Source: an uncultured Bacteroidales bacterium | GTDB lineage: Bacteria > Bacteroidota > Bacteroidia > Bacteroidales > UBA932 | Assembly: GCA_949286415.1 (NCBI GenBank) | Contig: CASEBV010000007.1 | Span: forward strand, 124,001 to 188,000 | Direction of reading: 5' to 3' | Length of the DNA: 64,000 nucleotides | Shown here: positions 44,259 to 62,687 of the stretch, piece after piece | How positions within the stretch are numbered: the stretch's first letter is position 1 | Layout of the letters: each line of letters starts with the position of its first letter | Made by a program: the position numbers and the translations under genes | Notes under the pieces: generated by a model | What the model saw: the letters and a program-made list of their open reading frames with translations, nothing else | What the model was told of the DNA's origin: nothing | Database searches by the model: none

Positions 44259-44292
44259 GATAAAAGAAATTTATCCGGCAAGCCGTACTCTG

Positions 44293-44300
44293 CAAAAGTA
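44293..44300 (-). promoter_or_regulatory. Promoter -7 box (TACTTTTG) for the HD gene
   Basis: Minus-strand TACTTTTG, full TAnnTTTG match, followed by a leader of about 25 bases. The two palindromes at 44330-44379 lie upstream of it, so they could also affect this promoter. Confidence 0.5.
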
Positions 44301-44329
44301 TAAAAAATTATATGCCGGCCTGCGCATGA

Positions 44330-44379
44330 TGTAAAGAAACTTTACAATAAAGGAGAGGAATGTGTAAAGATATTTTACA
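44330..44379. promoter_or_regulatory. Paired palindromic operators (TGTAAAG-N3-CTTTACA type)
   Basis: TGTAAAGAAACTTTACA at 44330-44346 is a perfect 7-3-7 palindrome; TGTAAAGATATTTTACA at 44363-44379 is a near-perfect second copy. Their centres (44338 and 44371) are 33 bp apart, about three helical turns, so dimers would sit on the same DNA face. They lie about 122 and 89 bp upstream of the start predicted from the -24/-12 element at 44434, the usual place for enhancer-type sites of sigma-54 activators. Confidence 0.7.
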
Positions 44380-44433
44380 TCAGGGACAGGATTGATTTTG
44401 ACATATCACTACGCATCAATGCATTGCATATTC

Positions 44434-44449
44434 TGGCATGCGAAATGCC
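44434..44449 (+). promoter_or_regulatory. Sigma-54-type (-24/-12) promoter match before the ABC exporter operon
   Basis: TGGCATG-CGAA-ATGC has GG at 44435-44436 and GC at 44447-44448, the exact 10-base spacing of a -24/-12 promoter (consensus TGGCACG-N4-TTGC; two mismatches in the core words). Predicted start near 44460. The same bases also form a 7-5-7 palindrome (CTGGCAT/ATGCCAG, 44433-44451), so a repressor site is an alternative reading. No convincing TAnnTTTG box is present between here and tolC. Confidence 0.55.
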
Positions 44450-44455
44450 AGTATG

Positions 44456-44520
44456 ATGGGGCTGACAAAAAGGGTACTTTCTGCGTTACGCTTGAAATCC
44501 ATCCTTTTGGTCAGCCCCAT
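44456..44520 (+). other. Long stem-loop at the 5' end of the exporter transcript
   Basis: ATGGGGCTGACAAAAAGG at 44456-44473 pairs with CCTTTTGGTCAGCCCCAT at 44503-44520, 17 of 18 positions, around a 29-base loop. It ends 14 bases before the tolC ATG and begins at the predicted transcript start. Could be a stabilising or regulatory 5' structure, or a dispersed miniature palindrome. The tail after it is CAT-TAAAATTTAT, not a strong T-run. Confidence 0.7.
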
Positions 44521-44534
44521 TAAAATTTATCGTG

Positions 44535-45917
44535 ATGAAAGTTTACGGCAGAATCATATTCGCAGGCATGTACGCGGCTCTTGCAGTCCTCTGCCCGGAT
44601 GCCGCGGCGCAAGACACGGCTCTGTTCACCCTGAGGGACTGCATGGAATACGCGGTATCCAACTCCACCGATGTCAGGATACAGCAGGCCACCAACGGTG
44701 ACAACCAGGTTGCACGCAGGGATGCAATACTGGGCGCCTTTACACCTTCAGTCAGCGCCGACGCACATGTATATTCCAATTTCGGCAGGACAATCGACCC
44801 TGAATCCAACACCTACATTTCAACGACTTCGTTCAACAACGCCTATTCGGTGAGCGCAGGAATCAATCTTTTCAACGGGTTCGAAGCCGTCAACAATCTC
44901 CGCATCACAAAGACAGCCAAGGCAATGGGCCTCAGCCAGGAACAACAGATAAAGGACAGGGTGTGCCTGGCGACCATAGAGGCATATTGCAATGTAGTCT
45001 ATTATTCGCGGCTGAGCCGGATTCTGCAGTCACAGGCGGAGACGGCGGAGAAATCACTTGAACTCATAAAACGGCAGGAACAGCTCGGACAGAAGGGATA
45101 TGCGGACATAATCCAGGCGGAAGCGGACCTGGCTGACAAGGAATACCAGCTCGTGACTGCCCGCAACAGTCTGAATGACGCCATGATAACCCTCAAGGAT
45201 GTAATGTTCTGGCCCATCACCGAACCTCTGGAAATAGACGAATCCATCGCTGAGGACGCCCTCTGGCAATACGAGGGAATCCTCCATGACGGCACCGAAA
45301 AAGAGGAAACCATTGACAAGGCGATGAATACCCTTCCGGACATATTCATAGCAAAAGGCACAATGGAAAATGCGAAAATGGAGCTTCGCACGGCAAAATG
45401 GCAGATTGCCCCGAGCCTTTCCCTGTATGCAGGATGGTCTACAAGCTTCTACACCTATCCGGGGCAGGCAGGATATGCCACAGACCCGTTCTGGCACCAG
45501 TTCCGTAACAACGGAGGAGAATATGTGCAGCTGTCCCTGTCGATACCGATATTCAACCGGCTTTCAAGACACTCCAATGTGGCCCGGAAAAAGAACGCCT
45601 ACACAAGGGCGACCGCAGAATATGAGCAGAAAGTCCGTGAAGTGGAAGCCGAAGTAAGCAGGGCAATCCAGGACAGGGACGGGGCATCGGCGGCATTCAT
45701 CCAGGCCGACAGAAGGGCCGATGTCCAGCAGGAGGCCTACAGGCTCAACACGAGGAAATTCGAGCAGGGGCTGATTTCAGCGATAGAATTCCGGACCGCT
45801 TCCGACACATATCTCAACGCGATGGCCGAAAGGCTGAACGCCCTCCTTCAATATCAGATCAAGAAGCGTGTCGTGTCATACTACAAGGGCATCCATTACC
45901 TGGACCAGGAACAGTGA
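44535..45917 (+). CDS. TolC-family outer-membrane efflux protein
   Basis: 460 residues; signal peptide ends near PDAAAQ. Two repeats of the outer-membrane efflux fold: LRDCMEYAVSNSTDVRIQQA and, in the second half, an EYVQLSLSIPIFNRLSRHSN barrel strand followed by long helices with many Ala/Gln/Glu. The last part (YRLNTRKFEQGLISAIEFRTAS) is typical. It forms the outer-membrane channel for the exporter encoded downstream. ATG 44535; a GTG one codon earlier is possible. The adaptor gene starts 26 bp after the stop. Confidence 0.92.
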   Translation: MKVYGRIIFAGMYAALAVLCPDAAAQDTALFTLRDCMEYAVSNSTDVRIQQATNGDNQVARRDAILGAFTPSVSADAHVYSNFGRTIDPESNTYISTTSFNNAYSVSAGINLFNGFEAVNNLRITKTAKAMGLSQEQQIKDRVCLATIEAYCNVVYYSRLSRILQSQAETAEKSLELIKRQEQLGQKGYADIIQAEADLADKEYQLVTARNSLNDAMITLKDVMFWPITEPLEIDESIAEDALWQYEGILHDGTEKEETIDKAMNTLPDIFIAKGTMENAKMELRTAKWQIAPSLSLYAGWSTSFYTYPGQAGYATDPFWHQFRNNGGEYVQLSLSIPIFNRLSRHSNVARKKNAYTRATAEYEQKVREVEAEVSRAIQDRDGASAAFIQADRRADVQQEAYRLNTRKFEQGLISAIEFRTASDTYLNAMAERLNALLQYQIKKRVVSYYKGIHYLDQEQ

Positions 45918-45943
45918 TTACAGACAATATAAAATTACAAGAT

Positions 45944-47218
45944 ATGGAAAACGAGACAATGGACAGAAGAATCGAGCAGAAGAAAGGCTGGAGACTGGCA
46001 TTCAGCCGCAAGGCTCTGCCTTATTGGGGAGGTGCCCTGCTGCTTGCATTCATCCTGTGGATAATATTCAGGGACAATTCGTCAACATTGCGCGTCGACA
46101 AAGACACAATCACCACCGGAGAAGTCACTGCCGGGGAATTCAATGACTATATCCGCATCAGCGGACAGGTACAGCCGATGACCACCATCCAGATAAGTCC
46201 TCTCGAAGGCGGAGTGGTGGAAGAAATAATCATTGAAGAAGGCAATCAGGTAAAAAAGGGGGACGAGATTCTCCGTCTCAGCAATGAGAACCTTGACCTC
46301 CAGATACTCAACTCTGAAGCCGAGCTGGCCGAGAAGGAGAACATCCTGCGCAACACCATGATCTCGATGGAACAGCAGAAACTCAGCGTACAGCAGGAAA
46401 GGCTTCAGCTGCAGATGGAAGTCCGCAGATACAGGAGGGCATACGAGCAGCAGAAAGCCCTCTATGAAGAGAAACTCATAGCCCGGGAGACATGGCTGCA
46501 GGCCGAGGAGGACTACCTGCTCGCCCTCGACAAACTCGCCCTTGTCAAGAACAGGGAACTGCAGGACAGCCTCTACCGGAGCGTAGAAATCGAACAGATG
46601 GAAGAAAGCCTCGAGAACATGAGGGTCAACATGCAGATGATCCGCAAGAGAAAGGACAATCTGACCATCAAGGCCCCGATTGACGGGGAACTCGGACTTC
46701 TGGACGCCGTCCTCGGCCAGTCAATAGCCTCCGGGACAAAAATAGGCCAGATCAACGACCTTTCGAGCTACAAGATTGAAGCCCAGATAGACGAGCACTA
46801 TATCGACAGGGTGACATCCGGACTTGAAGCCGCATTCGAGAGACAGGACGAGACCTTCCATGCCGTCATAAGGAAAGTATACCCTGAAGTCAGGGAAGGG
46901 AAATTCAAGGCCGACTTCAAGTTCTCCGGGCAGCAGCCGGACAACATCCGCACAGGGCAGACCTACTACATGAATCTCCAGCTCGGACAGCCGGAAGAAG
47001 CCGTTCTGATTCCACGCGGGACATTCTACCAGTACACGGGCGGCAAATGGATATATGTGCTCACTCCCGACGGCTCCGGAGCGGTCAAAAGGGGAATCCG
47101 GATAGGCCGCCAGAACCCGCAGTATTATGAAGTCGAAGAAGGGCTGCAGCCCGGGGAAGAAGTCATAATCTCCAACTACGAGAGCTACAGGGACAACGAC
47201 AGGCTGATCTTCAGGTAA
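45944..47218 (+). CDS. HlyD/MacA-type periplasmic adaptor
   Basis: 424 residues from ATG 45944-45946. One membrane span (about 27-43, YWGGALLLAFILWIIF), then a lipoyl/barrel-sandwich half (ISGQVQPMTTIQISPLEGGVVEEII, EGNQVKKGDEILRLSNENLD), a long alpha-hairpin coiled coil (about residues 120-230), and the second lipoyl half (LTIKAPIDGELGLLDAVLGQ) with a beta-barrel domain. Bridges the inner-membrane ABC parts and the TolC protein. A GTG at 45914 overlapping the tolC stop is an alternative start. Confidence 0.9.
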   Translation: MENETMDRRIEQKKGWRLAFSRKALPYWGGALLLAFILWIIFRDNSSTLRVDKDTITTGEVTAGEFNDYIRISGQVQPMTTIQISPLEGGVVEEIIIEEGNQVKKGDEILRLSNENLDLQILNSEAELAEKENILRNTMISMEQQKLSVQQERLQLQMEVRRYRRAYEQQKALYEEKLIARETWLQAEEDYLLALDKLALVKNRELQDSLYRSVEIEQMEESLENMRVNMQMIRKRKDNLTIKAPIDGELGLLDAVLGQSIASGTKIGQINDLSSYKIEAQIDEHYIDRVTSGLEAAFERQDETFHAVIRKVYPEVREGKFKADFKFSGQQPDNIRTGQTYYMNLQLGQPEEAVLIPRGTFYQYTGGKWIYVLTPDGSGAVKRGIRIGRQNPQYYEVEEGLQPGEEVIISNYESYRDNDRLIFR

Positions 47219-47300: not shown

Positions 47301-49685
47301 ATGAACCTACAGAAAAATATCGCAGAATCTTTCCGCAGCATTTTCCGGAAAGGCAGGCACAATGTGATGAAAATACTCTCGCTGGCAATAGGTCTTGCCC
47401 TCGGGCTGGTACTGATAGCCAAGGCGGCATTCGAGCAGAACTATGACGGATTCTACGAAGACAGCGGAAGAATCCATCTGATACTGGAGACTTTTCCGTC
47501 CCGGACAGAAAGCAGCTTGCCGGAAATATATCCGACCACTCCGGGAGGAATCGCCGTATACCTCAGGATGCTTTCTCCTGAAATCGAGACATCCACAAGA
47601 TTCACATCTTTGGGAGAAGGCTCCACATTCACGCTGACCGAGTCAAAAGACAAGCTGAAGGCGACATATGCCGCAGCCGACTCATGTTTCTTCGATGTGC
47701 TTTCCGTGGATGTGCTGCGGGGAGACCCGAAGGAAATACTTTCAAGGCCTCTCTATGCCATGGTATCAGAATCCGTCGCCGAGAACATCGGGGAAGATGC
47801 TCTCGGAAAGACAGTCGTGCTGGACGGGAAAGAAGATGCCGTGCTGACGATAGGAGGGATATTCAGGGATTTTCCTGAAAACTCTGTCTTCAGCCATCTG
47901 GACATGCTCGTCTCCATGCCGTCGATATCCTGCTACACCTGGGACGGCTCGATGAACCTCATCGGAAACGACAGATATACAAGCCTGATAAAACTGAAGG
48001 AAGGGGCGGACATTGCAGATGTGCAGGCCCAGACGGACAGATACATACAGGACAATTTCTCGCAGATGATGGAAGAGAGCGGAATAGAATTCGGACTGAC
48101 TTTCAGGAGGCTGGACTCCTGGCACGCGTCCGCCCCTCAGACCAGGAACATGACACTGATGCTCAGCCTCATCGCCGTTGCCCTGCTTCTGACAGGGGTC
48201 ATGAACTATATCCTTCTCACCGTATCCTCCATAATCGGCAGGTCCAAGGAAGTGGCAGTGTGCAAATGCTACGGTGCCGGACAGCGGGAAATAAGAGGAA
48301 TGCTTGTCACCGAGGCCTTTGTACATACGGTACTGGCGATGCTTGTCGGAGGGGCTCTGCTGGCAGCGTTCAGCGGCACGGTGGAAAAACTGACCGGAAC
48401 ATCCCTTGCCGGACTTCTCTCAGGAGGCAGGGTCCTGATGCTTCTGGCAGTATGCACGGCCATGGCGCTGACTGCAGGTATTATCCCGGGGAATATCTTT
48501 GCCAGGATACCCGTATCCTCCGCACTGCGCTCCTACCGGGAAGCGAAAAAGCACTGGAAGCTCGCCCTGCTGTCCGTACAGTTCGCATCGGCAGCCTTCC
48601 TGGCCATCCTCCTTCTGGTCGTCACAGGACAATACCGGCTGGTGACAAATGCCGACACCGGATATGAATACGACAATCTGGCATATTTTGACCTCTCTCC
48701 TGTCGCAGACGAAGAGCAGCGCAGCCTGATGCTCCAGGAAATAGAAAAACTCCCGGAAGTCACGGGGGTGACATTCGCCGATGAACTTCCGATGAACGGG
48801 GCGAGCGGAGACAATGTCATGCTCCCTGGAGACACAAAGGAACTCTTCAACTGCGCCGACCTGTATTTTGTAGGAGAAGATTATTTCGACCTCATGGAAA
48901 TCCCTGTGCTGCAGGGCAACGGATTCAACAGGCATGCTGCTGCCGGACAGGAGGTGATGGTCAGCAGGAGATTCACCGAATTCATGGAAAGGACAGCAGG
49001 ATGGGACCCCGACATAGTGGGGAAGGAAGTGTTCATCACTTCTTACAACAGGCCGATGACCATCTGCGGGGTATATGAGGACATCAGCATAGGTTCCGCC
49101 CTGAACCATGACGACAGGCCGTCCGTGATTGCATTCAGCCCTGTCCCGACAGCAGGCTTCGCGCTGGTGAAGTTCGGCAGGATTTCTCCTGAGTCCATTG
49201 CCAAGGTAGAACAGGTGATTGACGGGATTGCCCCCGACAAGGAGATGAATGTCTATTCCTACAGGAACGACATGCAGGCAGCCTATGCAGGGACAAGAAA
49301 TTTCAGGGACGCCGTGACCGTCGGAGGCATAGTGACACTCCTGATAGTATTCATCGGACTTGTCGGCTACACTTCCGATGAAGTCAGCCGCAGGCGCAAG
49401 GAACTGGCAATCCGTAAAATCAACGGGGCAATGATGCGCGACATCGCCGGACTCATGAACGCCGATGTCATCAGGATTGCGCTCCCGTCGGTAATCATCG
49501 GAGCCGTGGCCGCCTTTTTTGTCAGCGAGGGATGGCTTGAACAGTTCGCGGCAAAGGCTCCGCTCGGCTGGTATCTGTTTGCCGGAGGCGCTCTCGTTGT
49601 CCTGGCACTCAGTCTGGCGGTTGCCTCATACAATGTGATCCGCATAGCAGGCGAAGACCCCGTCAAGTCCCTGAAGACAGAATAA
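47301..49685 (+). CDS. FtsX/MacB-type ABC permease 1
   Basis: 794 residues. Two copies of the MacB-PCD plus FtsX layout: N-terminal span (VMKILSLAIGLALGLVLIAK), a periplasmic core, spans near residues 285-430 (LMLSLIAVALLLTGVMNYIL), then a second span, core and spans to the C-terminus (FAGGALVVLALSLAVASYNVI). IIGRSKEVAVCKCYGAGQREI and VSRRRKELAIRKINGAMMRD are the coupling-helix regions. Ends ...EDPVKSLKTE, the usual tail of the family. Probable partner of the ATPase at 49762. Substrate unknown. Confidence 0.88.
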   Translation: MNLQKNIAESFRSIFRKGRHNVMKILSLAIGLALGLVLIAKAAFEQNYDGFYEDSGRIHLILETFPSRTESSLPEIYPTTPGGIAVYLRMLSPEIETSTRFTSLGEGSTFTLTESKDKLKATYAAADSCFFDVLSVDVLRGDPKEILSRPLYAMVSESVAENIGEDALGKTVVLDGKEDAVLTIGGIFRDFPENSVFSHLDMLVSMPSISCYTWDGSMNLIGNDRYTSLIKLKEGADIADVQAQTDRYIQDNFSQMMEESGIEFGLTFRRLDSWHASAPQTRNMTLMLSLIAVALLLTGVMNYILLTVSSIIGRSKEVAVCKCYGAGQREIRGMLVTEAFVHTVLAMLVGGALLAAFSGTVEKLTGTSLAGLLSGGRVLMLLAVCTAMALTAGIIPGNIFARIPVSSALRSYREAKKHWKLALLSVQFASAAFLAILLLVVTGQYRLVTNADTGYEYDNLAYFDLSPVADEEQRSLMLQEIEKLPEVTGVTFADELPMNGASGDNVMLPGDTKELFNCADLYFVGEDYFDLMEIPVLQGNGFNRHAAAGQEVMVSRRFTEFMERTAGWDPDIVGKEVFITSYNRPMTICGVYEDISIGSALNHDDRPSVIAFSPVPTAGFALVKFGRISPESIAKVEQVIDGIAPDKEMNVYSYRNDMQAAYAGTRNFRDAVTVGGIVTLLIVFIGLVGYTSDEVSRRRKELAIRKINGAMMRDIAGLMNADVIRIALPSVIIGAVAAFFVSEGWLEQFAAKAPLGWYLFAGGALVVLALSLAVASYNVIRIAGEDPVKSLKTE

Positions 49686-49761: not shown

Positions 49762-50442
49762 ATGATTAAAGTTACCGACCTCTGCAAAGTGTTCCGTACT
49801 GAAGAAATCGAGACTACGGCACTCAACAATGTTTCATTTGAAATCAAGGACGGCGAATTCGTCGCCATCATGGGACCTTCGGGATGCGGAAAATCCACGC
49901 TCCTGAACATCCTCGGCCTTCTGGACAATCCGACAAGCGGAAGCTACGAGCTTCTCGGACACGAGGTGGCAGGCCTCAAGGAGAAGGACCGGACCAAATT
50001 CCGCAAGGGTAACATCGGATTCGTGTTCCAGAGCTTCAACCTCATCGACGAACTGAATGTCTATGAGAACGTCGAGCTTCCCCTGCGTTATCTGAACATC
50101 AGCGCATCGGAGAGGAAACAGAAAGTCACTGCCATCCTCAAGAGGATGAACATCAGCCACAGGGCGCAGCATTTCCCCCAGCAGCTCTCAGGAGGACAGC
50201 AGCAGAGGGTGGCCATTGCGAGGGCAGTTGTCGCAGGGCCGAAGCTGATTCTGGCCGACGAGCCAACGGGAAACCTTGACTCAAAGAACGGCAAGGAAGT
50301 GATGGACCTTCTCTCAGAACTCAACAGGGAAGGCACGACCATCGTGATGGTGACCCACTCGCAGAGGGACGCCTCTGTGGCGCAGAGGACAATCGACCTT
50401 TTCGACGGAAGAATCGTCAGCGACGTGGCCAACGAACTGTAA
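49762..50442 (+). CDS. ABC transporter ATPase (MacB/LolD type)
   Basis: 226 residues. Walker A GPSGCGKST (38-46), Q-loop VFQSFNLIDELN, signature LSGGQQQR (143-150), Walker B LILADEPTGNLD (163-174) and H-loop VTHSQRDA. Energises the FtsX-like permeases on either side. The only ATPase of the operon, so it probably serves all three permeases. Confidence 0.95.
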   Translation: MIKVTDLCKVFRTEEIETTALNNVSFEIKDGEFVAIMGPSGCGKSTLLNILGLLDNPTSGSYELLGHEVAGLKEKDRTKFRKGNIGFVFQSFNLIDELNVYENVELPLRYLNISASERKQKVTAILKRMNISHRAQHFPQQLSGGQQQRVAIARAVVAGPKLILADEPTGNLDSKNGKEVMDLLSELNREGTTIVMVTHSQRDASVAQRTIDLFDGRIVSDVANEL

Positions 50443-50466: not shown

Positions 50467-51885
50467 ATGAAACGGCTTTTCAGCAAGAACAGATGGCTGG
50501 GCACGATACTGAATGTCATCGGCCTTACGGTGTCGTTCACAGTGTTCATGATCATCATGATCCAGGTGCTCTACGACTGGAGATATGACAGGAATTATCC
50601 GGACAGCGAACGGATTTTCAGATTTGAATTTACCGATGACCCGTCAAGCCCGGGGGTCTACAACATAACCATCTGCCGGCCGTTCATCGAATCCGTCAAA
50701 GGGAAAATTCCCGAAGTGGAGGCTCTTGGGGCATACGGATATTGGAAAAATTCATCCGCACAATGGTATAAGTCCGACGACAGAGAGCAGATATACAACC
50801 TGTTGTCCAGCGATCTTGATACGGATATGCTGAAAGTGTTCCCGTTTGAATTCACCGAAGGGGACCCGGCAGAATTTGCCCGGCCGATGAGTGCGATTAT
50901 TGCGGAATCTGTCGCTGAACTGCTATGGCCTGACGAAAGTCCTGTCGGGAAAACAATTGTCAACAGATATAACTCCAGTGCAGAGTACCGGATAGTCGCC
51001 GTCTACAGGGATTTTCCCCGGAACAGCAGCGTGGAGAACGGTGTCCTGCTCCAGATGGGAGACGATTGCCTTACTCTCTGGAACGAATGGTCATTCCAGT
51101 GCTATATGAAGCTGCACAATCCGGACGATGCCGGGAAGGTCGCTGAAATGCTCAGGGACAAGATGCTGGAAGCACTTGAAATCGGGCCTGACTCCGACAT
51201 GGCGAAGATGCTCGAGAGCGGAGTCCGCATCACAAATCTTCATGAGGCATACTTTTCCAGGGACATCCCGGGAGACAACATGGGCAAGGGCAACCGGACA
51301 ACCACCGGGTCCTTATTCGCCATAGGACTGATACTCATTGTCATAGCCATAATCAATTTCATCAATATGGCTACCGCCGCAGTACCTATGTCCATAAAGG
51401 ACATAAATACCCGCAAAGTCCTCGGTTCCGGCAGGGCGGCCCTCATCAGGAGACAGCTTGCGGAAGCACTCTTCATCGCAGCCGCGGCATTTGCCCTGAG
51501 TGTCCTTGCGCTGCATCTGATTTCGACCACATCATTCACCTATTACATATCAGGCTCGCTGAAAGTCGGGGACAACATCCCCGTCATCCTGCTCGGGGCG
51601 GCTGCGGCGGTCTGCACCTCGCTCATCGCAGGGATTTTCCCTGCAATGTACAGTACATCTTTCCAGCCTGCACTGGTGCTGAAAGGCTCATTCTCCCTGT
51701 CTGACAAAGGAAAGATGTTCAGGAGCATACTTGTGGGGTTCCAGTTCACGGCTTCTTTCGTGCTCATGGCGGCAGCCCTTTACATCCAGGTGCAGACTTC
51801 ATTCATGAAAAGCATGGACATGGGCTTCAACCGTGACCTTGTGGTAGAATTCGGCTGCGGGTCGCGGATAGGACAAAAGTCATAG
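50467..51885 (+). CDS. N-terminal fragment of ABC permease 2
   Basis: 472 residues: first span (ILNVIGLTVSFTVFMIIMIQV), first periplasmic core, the first group of spans (SLFAIGLILIVIAIINFINM; AAFALSVLALHLI) with coupling region MSIKDINTRKVLGSGRAALI, and the start of the second repeat (ILVGFQFTASFVLMAAALYI). Ends at the premature TAG. 24 bp after the ATPase gene. Confidence 0.6.
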   Translation: MKRLFSKNRWLGTILNVIGLTVSFTVFMIIMIQVLYDWRYDRNYPDSERIFRFEFTDDPSSPGVYNITICRPFIESVKGKIPEVEALGAYGYWKNSSAQWYKSDDREQIYNLLSSDLDTDMLKVFPFEFTEGDPAEFARPMSAIIAESVAELLWPDESPVGKTIVNRYNSSAEYRIVAVYRDFPRNSSVENGVLLQMGDDCLTLWNEWSFQCYMKLHNPDDAGKVAEMLRDKMLEALEIGPDSDMAKMLESGVRITNLHEAYFSRDIPGDNMGKGNRTTTGSLFAIGLILIVIAIINFINMATAAVPMSIKDINTRKVLGSGRAALIRRQLAEALFIAAAAFALSVLALHLISTTSFTYYISGSLKVGDNIPVILLGAAAAVCTSLIAGIFPAMYSTSFQPALVLKGSFSLSDKGKMFRSILVGFQFTASFVLMAAALYIQVQTSFMKSMDMGFNRDLVVEFGCGSRIGQKS

Positions 51886-51903
51886 GCATTCAGGCAGAAG
51901 CTC

Positions 51904-52839
51904 ATGGAAAATCCGCACATAAAGGATGTGACATTTGCCGGCAACTGGCTGGTTTCGACAGAAAAGATGGGATGGGGCCGTGAGTTTGACGGGCACAGGG
52001 TCCAGCTGGACGTGCTTCCGGTATCCGTCAACTTCATCGACTTCTTCGGAATGTCAATAAAGGAGGGGCGCAATTTCATGCCTTCCGATGACCTCAACCC
52101 CGACGGGACATTCATCATGAACGAGCAGACCATGCTCAAATACCCTTTCCTGAAGATCGGGGACAGGCTGAGCGGCCATGCCGAAGCGCCTGCCGAAATT
52201 GTGGGCATAGTCCGTGACTTCAATTTCATGCCGCTCCAATATGGAGTCGACCCTATCGCCCTGTATGTATTCGGGGCGAATCCATGGTGGCCGCTGCAGG
52301 TTGTATACGCCAAGACAGACGGGGCAGACATCGCCGGGACATTCCGGTATATCCGTGATGCCATAGAAGAATTCGACCCTGCGATAAACGGAGACGACAT
52401 CTATCTGGAATTCCTTGACGACACCATCGGCAGCATGTATCAGAAAGAAGAGAAACTGAACAGCCTCATCGCCGCCACCGCTGCCCTGTCACTCCTCATA
52501 TCGCTCATCGGAATCTTCGGCATGATAAGCTTCAAGACACAGTTCCGCCGCAAGGAGATTGCACTGAGAAAGGTACACGGGGCTTCCGTCCGGAGCATAT
52601 TGCACATGCTGAACAGATACTACCTGATCATGACCTGCATCTGCTTCGCCGTATCGGTGCCTGTGTCAGTGCTGATAATGAAGACATGGGTGAAAGGATT
52701 TGCATACCAGGCCCCTGTACCGGTGTGGATATTCGCCGCATCCCTGGCCGCAGTCCTTGCAGTGACACTTCTGACAGTCTCCCTGCAGACATGGAAGACT
52801 GCAAATGACAATCCTGTGGATTCATTGAGGGCCGAATGA
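51904..52839 (+). CDS. C-terminal fragment of ABC permease 2
   Basis: 311 residues if started at ATG 51904, 18 bases after the TAG: second periplasmic core and the last spans (IAATAALSLLISLIGIFGMI; YLIMTCICFAVSVPVSVLIM) with coupling region FRRKEIALRKVHGASVRSI and the family tail NDNPVDSLRAE. Has no signal or first span of its own, so it is unlikely to be a native independent protein. Its TGA overlaps the next ATG. Confidence 0.55.
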   Translation: MENPHIKDVTFAGNWLVSTEKMGWGREFDGHRVQLDVLPVSVNFIDFFGMSIKEGRNFMPSDDLNPDGTFIMNEQTMLKYPFLKIGDRLSGHAEAPAEIVGIVRDFNFMPLQYGVDPIALYVFGANPWWPLQVVYAKTDGADIAGTFRYIRDAIEEFDPAINGDDIYLEFLDDTIGSMYQKEEKLNSLIAATAALSLLISLIGIFGMISFKTQFRRKEIALRKVHGASVRSILHMLNRYYLIMTCICFAVSVPVSVLIMKTWVKGFAYQAPVPVWIFAASLAAVLAVTLLTVSLQTWKTANDNPVDSLRAE

Positions 52840-55175
52840 TGAAAAGTTTTCTGAGATTTCTGTGGAGGAACAGGCTGTACACGGCAATAGAAGTGCTGGG
52901 CATGGCTGTGGCGATGGCATTCGTGATATTCATCGCATCATTTGTCATCGGTGAACTGTCGTACGACAAAGAGCTTGAAGGCACAGAATACATCTATGCC
53001 GGTCATTCCGAGAGGCTTTTCATCGGAAGCGCGACAATAAAGGAACAGGTGGAGGGGAAATTTCCGGAAATCGAGTCCATCTGCAGGATGACAAGCACAA
53101 GCATTTTCGGAGGGCTTTCCTGCTATGCAAGGGTCGGGGACGAGGAGTTCAGGCAGAATGCGCTGATTGCGGACGGGAATTTCTTCGGGATGTTCACCTT
53201 CCCCCTTGTCTCAGGTACTCCGGAAAGTGCGCTTTCCGCCATGAACTCGGTAGCCGTGTCGGAAAGTTTTGCCCGGAAGTATTTCAAGGAGAAGGACCCG
53301 TGCGGACAGACTTTCCTGCTGATGCTCAACGGTAAGGAAGAGCCGGTGACAATAAATGCCGTCTACGGGGATTTCTGCAACACCATCTTCCCCGCCCAGG
53401 ACATTATTTACCGTTTTGACCTTTTTGAGAAAATGTATCCTGAAGGTACCGGCAACGGCAGCGGAATCGCAGTCAATTTCTATGAGGTGGCTCCCGGCAC
53501 TGACATCGCCTCCCTGGAAAGCAGGATAGAGGAAGTTGTCAAGGAAAATGACTATATCTATCTGTATGATGTGGTCCATGAGTACCGGCTATCTCCATTC
53601 AAGGACATCCATTTCGGGATATTAGACGAGTCCGCCCCCTTTGAAGGAGTGGTAAAGAAAGACTTCATAAGGCTCTTCATTGCCGCAGGCGTGCTGCTTC
53701 TGGTATTCGCCCTGCTCAACTACATTTCACTGACAGTGGCACAGACAGGATTCCGGGCCAAGGAAATGGCCACACGCAGGCTGCTCGGTTCGCAGAAAAG
53801 CGGAATAATCGCGAGATACCTTTATGAAGCCGCCATACTCACAGCCGCGGCATTTGCCCTTGCCCTGGTCTTTGCAGAACTTTTTACACCGGCCATGAGC
53901 AGGCTCATCGGCAAGGAAGTCATGCCGTTTTCTGGCATCGGGGCCGCAGAGATTGTCTTCTACATTCTGCTTGTGGCAGTGATGGCCCTGTGCTCAGGCG
54001 CAATACCTGCGGCAATAGTCTCGAAATACAAGCCGATAGATGTTGTCAAGGGAGCAACCGGCGGGACAGGAAAGATGACCCTCGGCCGGATATTCATCGT
54101 GGTCCAGAACAGCGTGGCTGTGGTGACGCTTTCCCTTGCTGCAGTGATGTTCCTGCAGATCAGACACATGGTCAGCAAGCCCATGGGCTATGACAAAGAC
54201 GGGATCATCTCTGTGGCCGGGGCCGGACAGGCTTCCGACTACCATTTGGATGAACTGCGCACTCTCGCCTGCGTGGAGAAGGCCGGATGGCTGCAGTTTG
54301 ACCCGATGGGAGCATCACATGTGGGAGTAAGTCTGAAAAGGAATGGAGAAGAACTGCATTTCGACATGTTTTACGGCACTCAGGAGGCATTTGAAGTCAT
54401 CGGGCTGAAAGTGCTCAGACAGAATGCCGAACCCGCAAGCCCGTCAATGTGGATGACGGAAAGCGCGATGCGTTCGCTCGGCCTTGACTATGACTGCACC
54501 GCCCTGGAACTTGACAACGGCATGATTCCGGTCTGCGGGATCATAGAGGATTTCACCAAAGGCACCGCAAGCAGCACCAACGAGTTTCTGCTGTGCTGCT
54601 GGATAATGGACATGGAATCGGAGAATGATTTCAGGGTGCTGCGCCAGCTTGCAGTAAAGGTCAACGGAGATGAAGACGAGGCCAGGAAGCAGATTCAGGA
54701 CTTCTATGCTTCGCACGGATTTTCCGAAGATGAAATCCATGTGCAGACCTATAATGAGATGAACAGGAACCTGTACCATACCGAAGACCAGAATCTGCGC
54801 CTCATAAGTGTCTTCACAGGGCTGATTCTCCTGCTGTCAGTGCTGGCGATGACAGCCATGAGCACATATTACACCCGCAGCCATGCAAGACAGACGGCCG
54901 TCAGGAAAGTGATGGGGTGCAGCCGTAGCAGAATCTTCGCCGGCATGGCCGGAGGCTTCCTGTCTGCGGTATGCATCGCAGCCGTCATAGGCATACCGTG
55001 CAGCTTCCTCATCGCCGGGAAATGGCTTGAAGGCTATCCGTACCGCATAGACAATTCTCTCTGGACATACATTGCCGCGACCCTTGTCCTCATGGCGGTT
55101 GCCGTCGCTGCCATAAGCTGGCAGACAGTCAGGCTGATGAATACGGACCCGGCGGAGGCCTTGAAAAACGAATAA
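52836..55175 (+). CDS. FtsX/MacB-type ABC permease 3
   Basis: 779 residues, intact. Same two-repeat layout: first span AIEVLGMAVAMAFVIFIASF, core, spans around RLFIAAGVLLLVFALLNYIS, second core, and final spans ending TDPAEALKNE. Coupling regions GFRAKEMATRRLLGSQKSGI and HARQTAVRKVMGCSRSRIF. ATG overlaps the stop of permease 2 (ATGA), so translation is coupled to the broken gene's downstream half. Last gene of the exporter operon. Confidence 0.88.
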   Translation: MMKSFLRFLWRNRLYTAIEVLGMAVAMAFVIFIASFVIGELSYDKELEGTEYIYAGHSERLFIGSATIKEQVEGKFPEIESICRMTSTSIFGGLSCYARVGDEEFRQNALIADGNFFGMFTFPLVSGTPESALSAMNSVAVSESFARKYFKEKDPCGQTFLLMLNGKEEPVTINAVYGDFCNTIFPAQDIIYRFDLFEKMYPEGTGNGSGIAVNFYEVAPGTDIASLESRIEEVVKENDYIYLYDVVHEYRLSPFKDIHFGILDESAPFEGVVKKDFIRLFIAAGVLLLVFALLNYISLTVAQTGFRAKEMATRRLLGSQKSGIIARYLYEAAILTAAAFALALVFAELFTPAMSRLIGKEVMPFSGIGAAEIVFYILLVAVMALCSGAIPAAIVSKYKPIDVVKGATGGTGKMTLGRIFIVVQNSVAVVTLSLAAVMFLQIRHMVSKPMGYDKDGIISVAGAGQASDYHLDELRTLACVEKAGWLQFDPMGASHVGVSLKRNGEELHFDMFYGTQEAFEVIGLKVLRQNAEPASPSMWMTESAMRSLGLDYDCTALELDNGMIPVCGIIEDFTKGTASSTNEFLLCCWIMDMESENDFRVLRQLAVKVNGDEDEARKQIQDFYASHGFSEDEIHVQTYNEMNRNLYHTEDQNLRLISVFTGLILLLSVLAMTAMSTYYTRSHARQTAVRKVMGCSRSRIFAGMAGGFLSAVCIAAVIGIPCSFLIAGKWLEGYPYRIDNSLWTYIAATLVLMAVAVAAISWQTVRLMNTDPAEALKNE

Positions 55176-62659: not shown

Positions 62660-62687
62660 GAGGCCAACCTGTTGCGGTCAGCCCCTC
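62660..62687 (-). other. Leader hairpin upstream of aguA
   Basis: On the minus strand GGGGCTGACC pairs with GGTTGGCCTC (about ten pairs, three G-U) around a six-base loop GCAACA, followed by GTTTTAT. It lies between the -7 box and the aguA ATG, so it resembles an attenuator; it could equally end read-through from the WYL gene. Confidence 0.5.

Follow-up and report, generated by a model that had tools for sequence, protein, structure and literature searches.

A conserved sigma-54-type promoter of a multi-permease ABC exporter operon and the apparent loss of its kinase-regulator pair in an uncultured Bacteroidales bacterium

Sigma-54 control of FtsX-type/antimicrobial-peptide ABC permeases (COG0577) was predicted in Bacteroidia in 2025 on the basis of promoter matrices (PMC12316311). 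The permeases reported there represent the same target gene class, in the same bacterial class, as those of the operon analysed here, and the target class is therefore not new. In the available part of that study, the promoters were inferred in bulk, whereas the present analysis locates the enhancer sites and identifies both the cognate kinase-regulator pair and a lineage that lacks it. Nothing closer than PMC12316311 was found in the literature on sigma-54 in combination with TolC or MacB, or with Cryptobacteroides. The new elements are the enhancer motif, the kinase-regulator pair cognate to the operon, and the loss of this pair.

The locus shares with the NtrC-family two-component systems a regulator of receiver-AAA+-Fis architecture adjoining its kinase, and paired palindromes situated before a -24/-12 element. 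It differs from them in that the target is an exporter, and in that the regulator and the kinase are missing in this genome. Like the exporters of the MacB-TolC type, it combines a TolC-like channel, an HlyD-type adaptor, MacB/FtsX permeases and an ABC ATPase; unlike them, it carries the ATPase and the permeases as separate genes, with several permeases forming a set that varies among relatives. The stretch of DNA under study, referred to below as the window, comprises 64 000 nucleotides and is part of contig 7 of the assembly. Judging by the named contigs that carry the closest HlyD proteins, the near relatives are species of Candidatus Cryptobacteroides.

The -24/-12 element and the upstream palindromes

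The sequence at positions 44434-44449 of the forward strand is TGGCATGCGAAATGCC. Its GG (44435-44436) and GC (44447-44448) are separated by 10 bases, so that the element TGGCATG-N4-ATGC described in the initial annotation is indeed present at 44434-44448. The predicted transcription start lies near 44460, about 12 bases past the GC. The loose motif TGGCA-N6-TGC, with one mismatch allowed, has 69 matches in the window for 67 expected, and the case for a promoter consequently rests on conservation. The strict pattern TGGCAYG-N4-WTGC is much rarer, with three sites in the 2.18-Mb genome against one for the reversed control pattern.

The orthologues of tolC were searched in 200 genomes of the genus, and the upstream regions of 41 loci were read. 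There is a shared layout in 40 orthologous tolC upstream regions: TGTAAAG-type palindromes followed, after about 64 bp, by TTTGGCACG-N4-RTGY. In these 40 regions, a constant distance separates TGG[CT][AC] from the GTAAA/TTTAC palindromes that precede it. The choice of sites relied on the palindromes and the -24 half, the -12 half playing no part in it; at the right spacing, the -12 core nevertheless reads T in 39 of the 40 regions, G in 38 of 40 and C or T in 36 of 40. The distance from the centre of the proximal palindrome to TGG is 62-65 bp in 37 of 41 regions (window included), and the palindromes are spaced by 21-22 or 32-33 bp, corresponding to two or three helical turns, in 15 of the 16 regions where two were scored. 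The same layout extends beyond the genus, to loci labelled Bacteroides caecigallinarum, Phocaeicola and Parabacteroides. In a few relatives (L050, L051 and L163), the -12 half is displaced by a single base (TGGCACGTCAGATTGA, TGGCACGGAACATTGA), and the enhancer palindromes are preserved.

A promoter matrix was built from the 40 orthologous upstream regions, the window being left out. Applied to both strands of the window, it places 44434 at rank 1 with 16.4 bits; the runner-up (13.0 bits) is located within a coding region. The -24 element of the window deviates slightly from the family consensus, with CATG where the consensus has CACG.

Two putative activator sites precede the promoter. Site 1, TGTAAAGAAACTTTACA (44330-44346), is a perfect palindrome conserved in the orthologues, and site 2, TGTAAAGATATTTTACA (44363-44379), lies 33 bp from it, start to start. 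The genome contains no other exact match to TGTAAAG-N4-TTTACA, and the expectation for TGTAAA-N5-TTTACA is 0.0008 sites per 64 kb. Relative to a start placed 12 bases after the GC, the palindromes are centred at -122 and -89, in agreement with the paired palindromes noted initially at about these positions. They are helically phased and stand at enhancer distance from the promoter, as in operons of the NtrC type.

Repressor operators (e.g. TetR-type) typically contain palindromes of this size as well, and the promoter site overlaps an inverted repeat of its own, TGGCAT-GCGAA-ATGCCA. An operon governed by a repressor, with an incidental GG-N10-GC, is nevertheless exceedingly improbable, given that the palindromes are placed at a fixed distance before a conserved -24/-12 element and that the conserved neighbouring gene codes for an NtrC-type regulator (see below). 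The inverted repeat itself, which is not conserved in relatives, was for this reason dismissed as a candidate operator.

The genus-wide conserved footprint, the presence of rpoN and the occurrence of an NtrC-type activator with its kinase in relatives all speak for the sigma-54 promoter proposed in the initial annotation. The assignment of 44434-44448 as the predicted -24/-12 promoter of a sigma-54-dependent exporter operon is thus strongly supported.

The exporter operon and its leader

The operon is encoded on the forward strand. The first gene codes for a TolC-like outer membrane efflux protein (44535-45917; PF02321, 4.8e-43) and is followed by genes for an HlyD-type periplasmic adaptor (45914-47218; PF13437/PF16576), MacB/FtsX-type permease 1 (47301-49685; PF12704, PF02687), an ABC ATPase (49762-50442; PF00005, 8.3e-38) that is 98-99% identical to those of the nearest relatives, MacB/FtsX-type permease 2 (50467-52839) and MacB/FtsX-type permease 3 (52836-55175; PF12704, PF02687). 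The set expected of a MacB-TolC type tripartite exporter is complete by family (TolC/OEP, HlyD adaptor, MacB_PCD and FtsX permease, ABC ATPase), and the multi-permease ABC exporter initially recognized is found with three permeases, one of them interrupted, and one ATPase.

The interruption is an in-frame TAG at 51883-51885, which divides permease 2 into two open reading frames in one frame. In G198 (L048) this frame is unbroken, and in G050 (L052) the corresponding stretch has no stop at the place of the TAG. This nonsense codon suggests that decay of the operon may have started; its source is one assembly, and it could be a sequencing error. Apart from permease 2, the operon genes are intact. 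In a relative-rate test, permease 1 was accelerated in the window lineage and the other operon genes were not. Since there is no consistent acceleration of the operon genes, decay would be recent or absent.

The set and order of the permeases behind tolC-hlyD vary among close relatives (L047, L048, L050, L052 and L053), and the ATPase is 92-99% identical across these same loci despite their differing permeases. It looks as if FtsX-type permeases had been swapped as modules between relatives.

The leader of the operon contains a strong predicted stem-loop (44455-44521, forward strand; -38.4 kcal/mol, z -5.7), with arms of 18 nt at 44456-44473 and 44503-44520 that are 94% complementary. In the predicted mRNA it would be placed at the 5' end. 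A conserved leader and a terminator were both considered and rejected for this structure: it has no downstream T-run, most tolC orthologues showed no such structure in their leaders, and it is single-copy in the genome rather than a member of a repeat family. A similarity was also noticed for GGTCAGCCCC at 62676.

The stem-loop is particular to this genome, and the leader has therefore changed. Such a change would be consistent with rewiring of the operon to a housekeeping promoter since the loss of the kinase-regulator pair. We regard this as distinctly unlikely, as no exact TAnnTTTG box is present in 44259-44540, confirming what was first reported for the region before tolC; the nearest sequence, TACGCTTG at 44487, has one mismatch and lies within the stem-loop.

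The kinase-regulator pair of relatives and its absence from this genome

The genome contains one intact rpoN gene coding for 470 amino acids (PF04552, 1.1e-53), and the search for this gene suggested in the initial annotation thus has a positive outcome. Next to tolC, the relatives conserve a gene for an NtrC-type response regulator with receiver, AAA+ and Fis HTH domains, accompanied by one for a histidine kinase. Of 41 relative loci, 26 carry the regulator close to tolC, and almost all of these also have the kinase; a PAS domain is present in the kinase in both examples scanned. The apparent absence of the regulator in G166 and G093 was not scored as loss because the contigs are short on that side. 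G139, G198 and G050, the nearest relatives, possess the pair at a place unlinked from the operon. There it is situated between the gene of a protein of about 690 amino acids and an acyl-CoA-synthetase-like gene, an assignment made from sequence and not by family search; an htpG-like gene follows at some distance.

Neither partner was recovered from the genome of the window (G000). The genome-wide search with the regulator returned only two other activators (36% and 45% identity), which are non-orthologous, and the genome-wide search with the kinase returned only distant kinases. The orthologue of the left neighbour is located at C5:33672-35714. Directly after this gene, contig C5 carries the small genes and then the one resembling htpG, in the same order as in G198; the kinase, the regulator and the acyl-CoA-synthetase-like gene are absent at this syntenic place inside the contig, and the last of these has no close orthologue elsewhere in the genome (best 46%). 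Because the genome searches gave no orthologue of either partner and the syntenic site is closed without the pair, the pair has most likely been deleted at this place.

The assembly has 29 contigs and a completeness of 98.07%, and the pair seems able to move, since it is unlinked from the operon in the nearest relatives. It could accordingly be imagined that the organism possesses the pair at another location, inside an assembly gap. This is very unlikely: the syntenic site is closed in one contig with conserved gene order, and the regulator and the kinase were searched separately, neither being found.

The initial annotation described an operon switched on by an NtrC-type protein. For the relatives, where the regulator and the kinase are identified, this description is well founded; in the present genome, where the pair is absent genome-wide and its syntenic site is empty, such switching is doubtful. 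Likewise, the search for a sigma-54 activator beside a histidine kinase elsewhere in the genome gave no cognate pair, only the two non-orthologous activators. One of them, C12:196646, has a receiver and an AAA+ domain, with no HTH found by Pfam; the other, C6:177736, is encoded beside an lptE-like gene and has an AAA+ domain and a Fis HTH, with no receiver. Both are intact. The NtrC-type protein at L002 1261-2463, with receiver and AAA+ domains and no HTH by Pfam, is possibly a sigma-54 activator that works without DNA binding.

One of the two remaining activators might still drive the operon through sigma-54, C12:196646 doing so from solution. Such a takeover would account for the good preservation of the enhancer sites and the promoter, for the fact that most operon genes are not faster-evolving, and it would make use of activators and an rpoN gene that are all intact. 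We consider it unlikely, although less so than rewiring to a housekeeping promoter. At least three sigma-54 activators are encoded in 63 of the 72 operon-bearing genomes versus 26 of the 128 genomes without the operon (Fisher p 4e-21, the related genomes not being independent), a co-occurrence in favour of the circuit proposed below. In most genomes that lack the operon there are about two, and the two activators remaining here therefore probably serve other roles. The lack of a Pfam HTH in C12:196646 and of a receiver in C6:177736 also argues against either protein as a substitute.

The proposed circuit and its significance

In the ancestral and still common state, the PAS-domain histidine kinase would phosphorylate the NtrC-type response regulator, whose Fis-type helix-turn-helix would bind the TGTAAAG/CTTTACA palindromes upstream of the promoter. 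The regulator would then oligomerise, and its AAA+ domain would open the sigma-54 polymerase at TGGCACG-N4-RTGY, turning the exporter on. In the present genome, the deletion of the pair would have left an orphan operon with enhancer sites and promoter still intact. As the pair appears to be deleted, this operon is most likely silent or weakly expressed, and its decay may be beginning. On the whole, we hold it to be highly probable that a conserved sigma-54 promoter of the exporter, ancestrally under kinase-regulator control, has been orphaned here by loss of the pair, with the operon most likely silent or weak and at the start of its decay.

A more particular version of this history has, in our estimation, an even chance of being correct. 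It would capture a sigma-54 circuit soon after the loss of its activator, the pair having been deleted from a place unlinked to the operon. Two outcomes are envisaged: either takeover by an activator without a DNA-binding domain, together with the new 5' stem-loop, or silencing and decay.

To our knowledge, the mapping of sigma-54 regulons in Bacteroidales is still poor. The TGTAAAG/CTTTACA palindrome pairs, the TTTGGCACG-N4-RTGY element and the specific kinase-regulator pair may serve as predictors of the control of a widespread exporter, and the genome analysed here would offer a natural deletion of that kinase-regulator pair. The case also illustrates that a promoter call made from sequence can be right even though the regulation that it implies may no longer apply in the strain.
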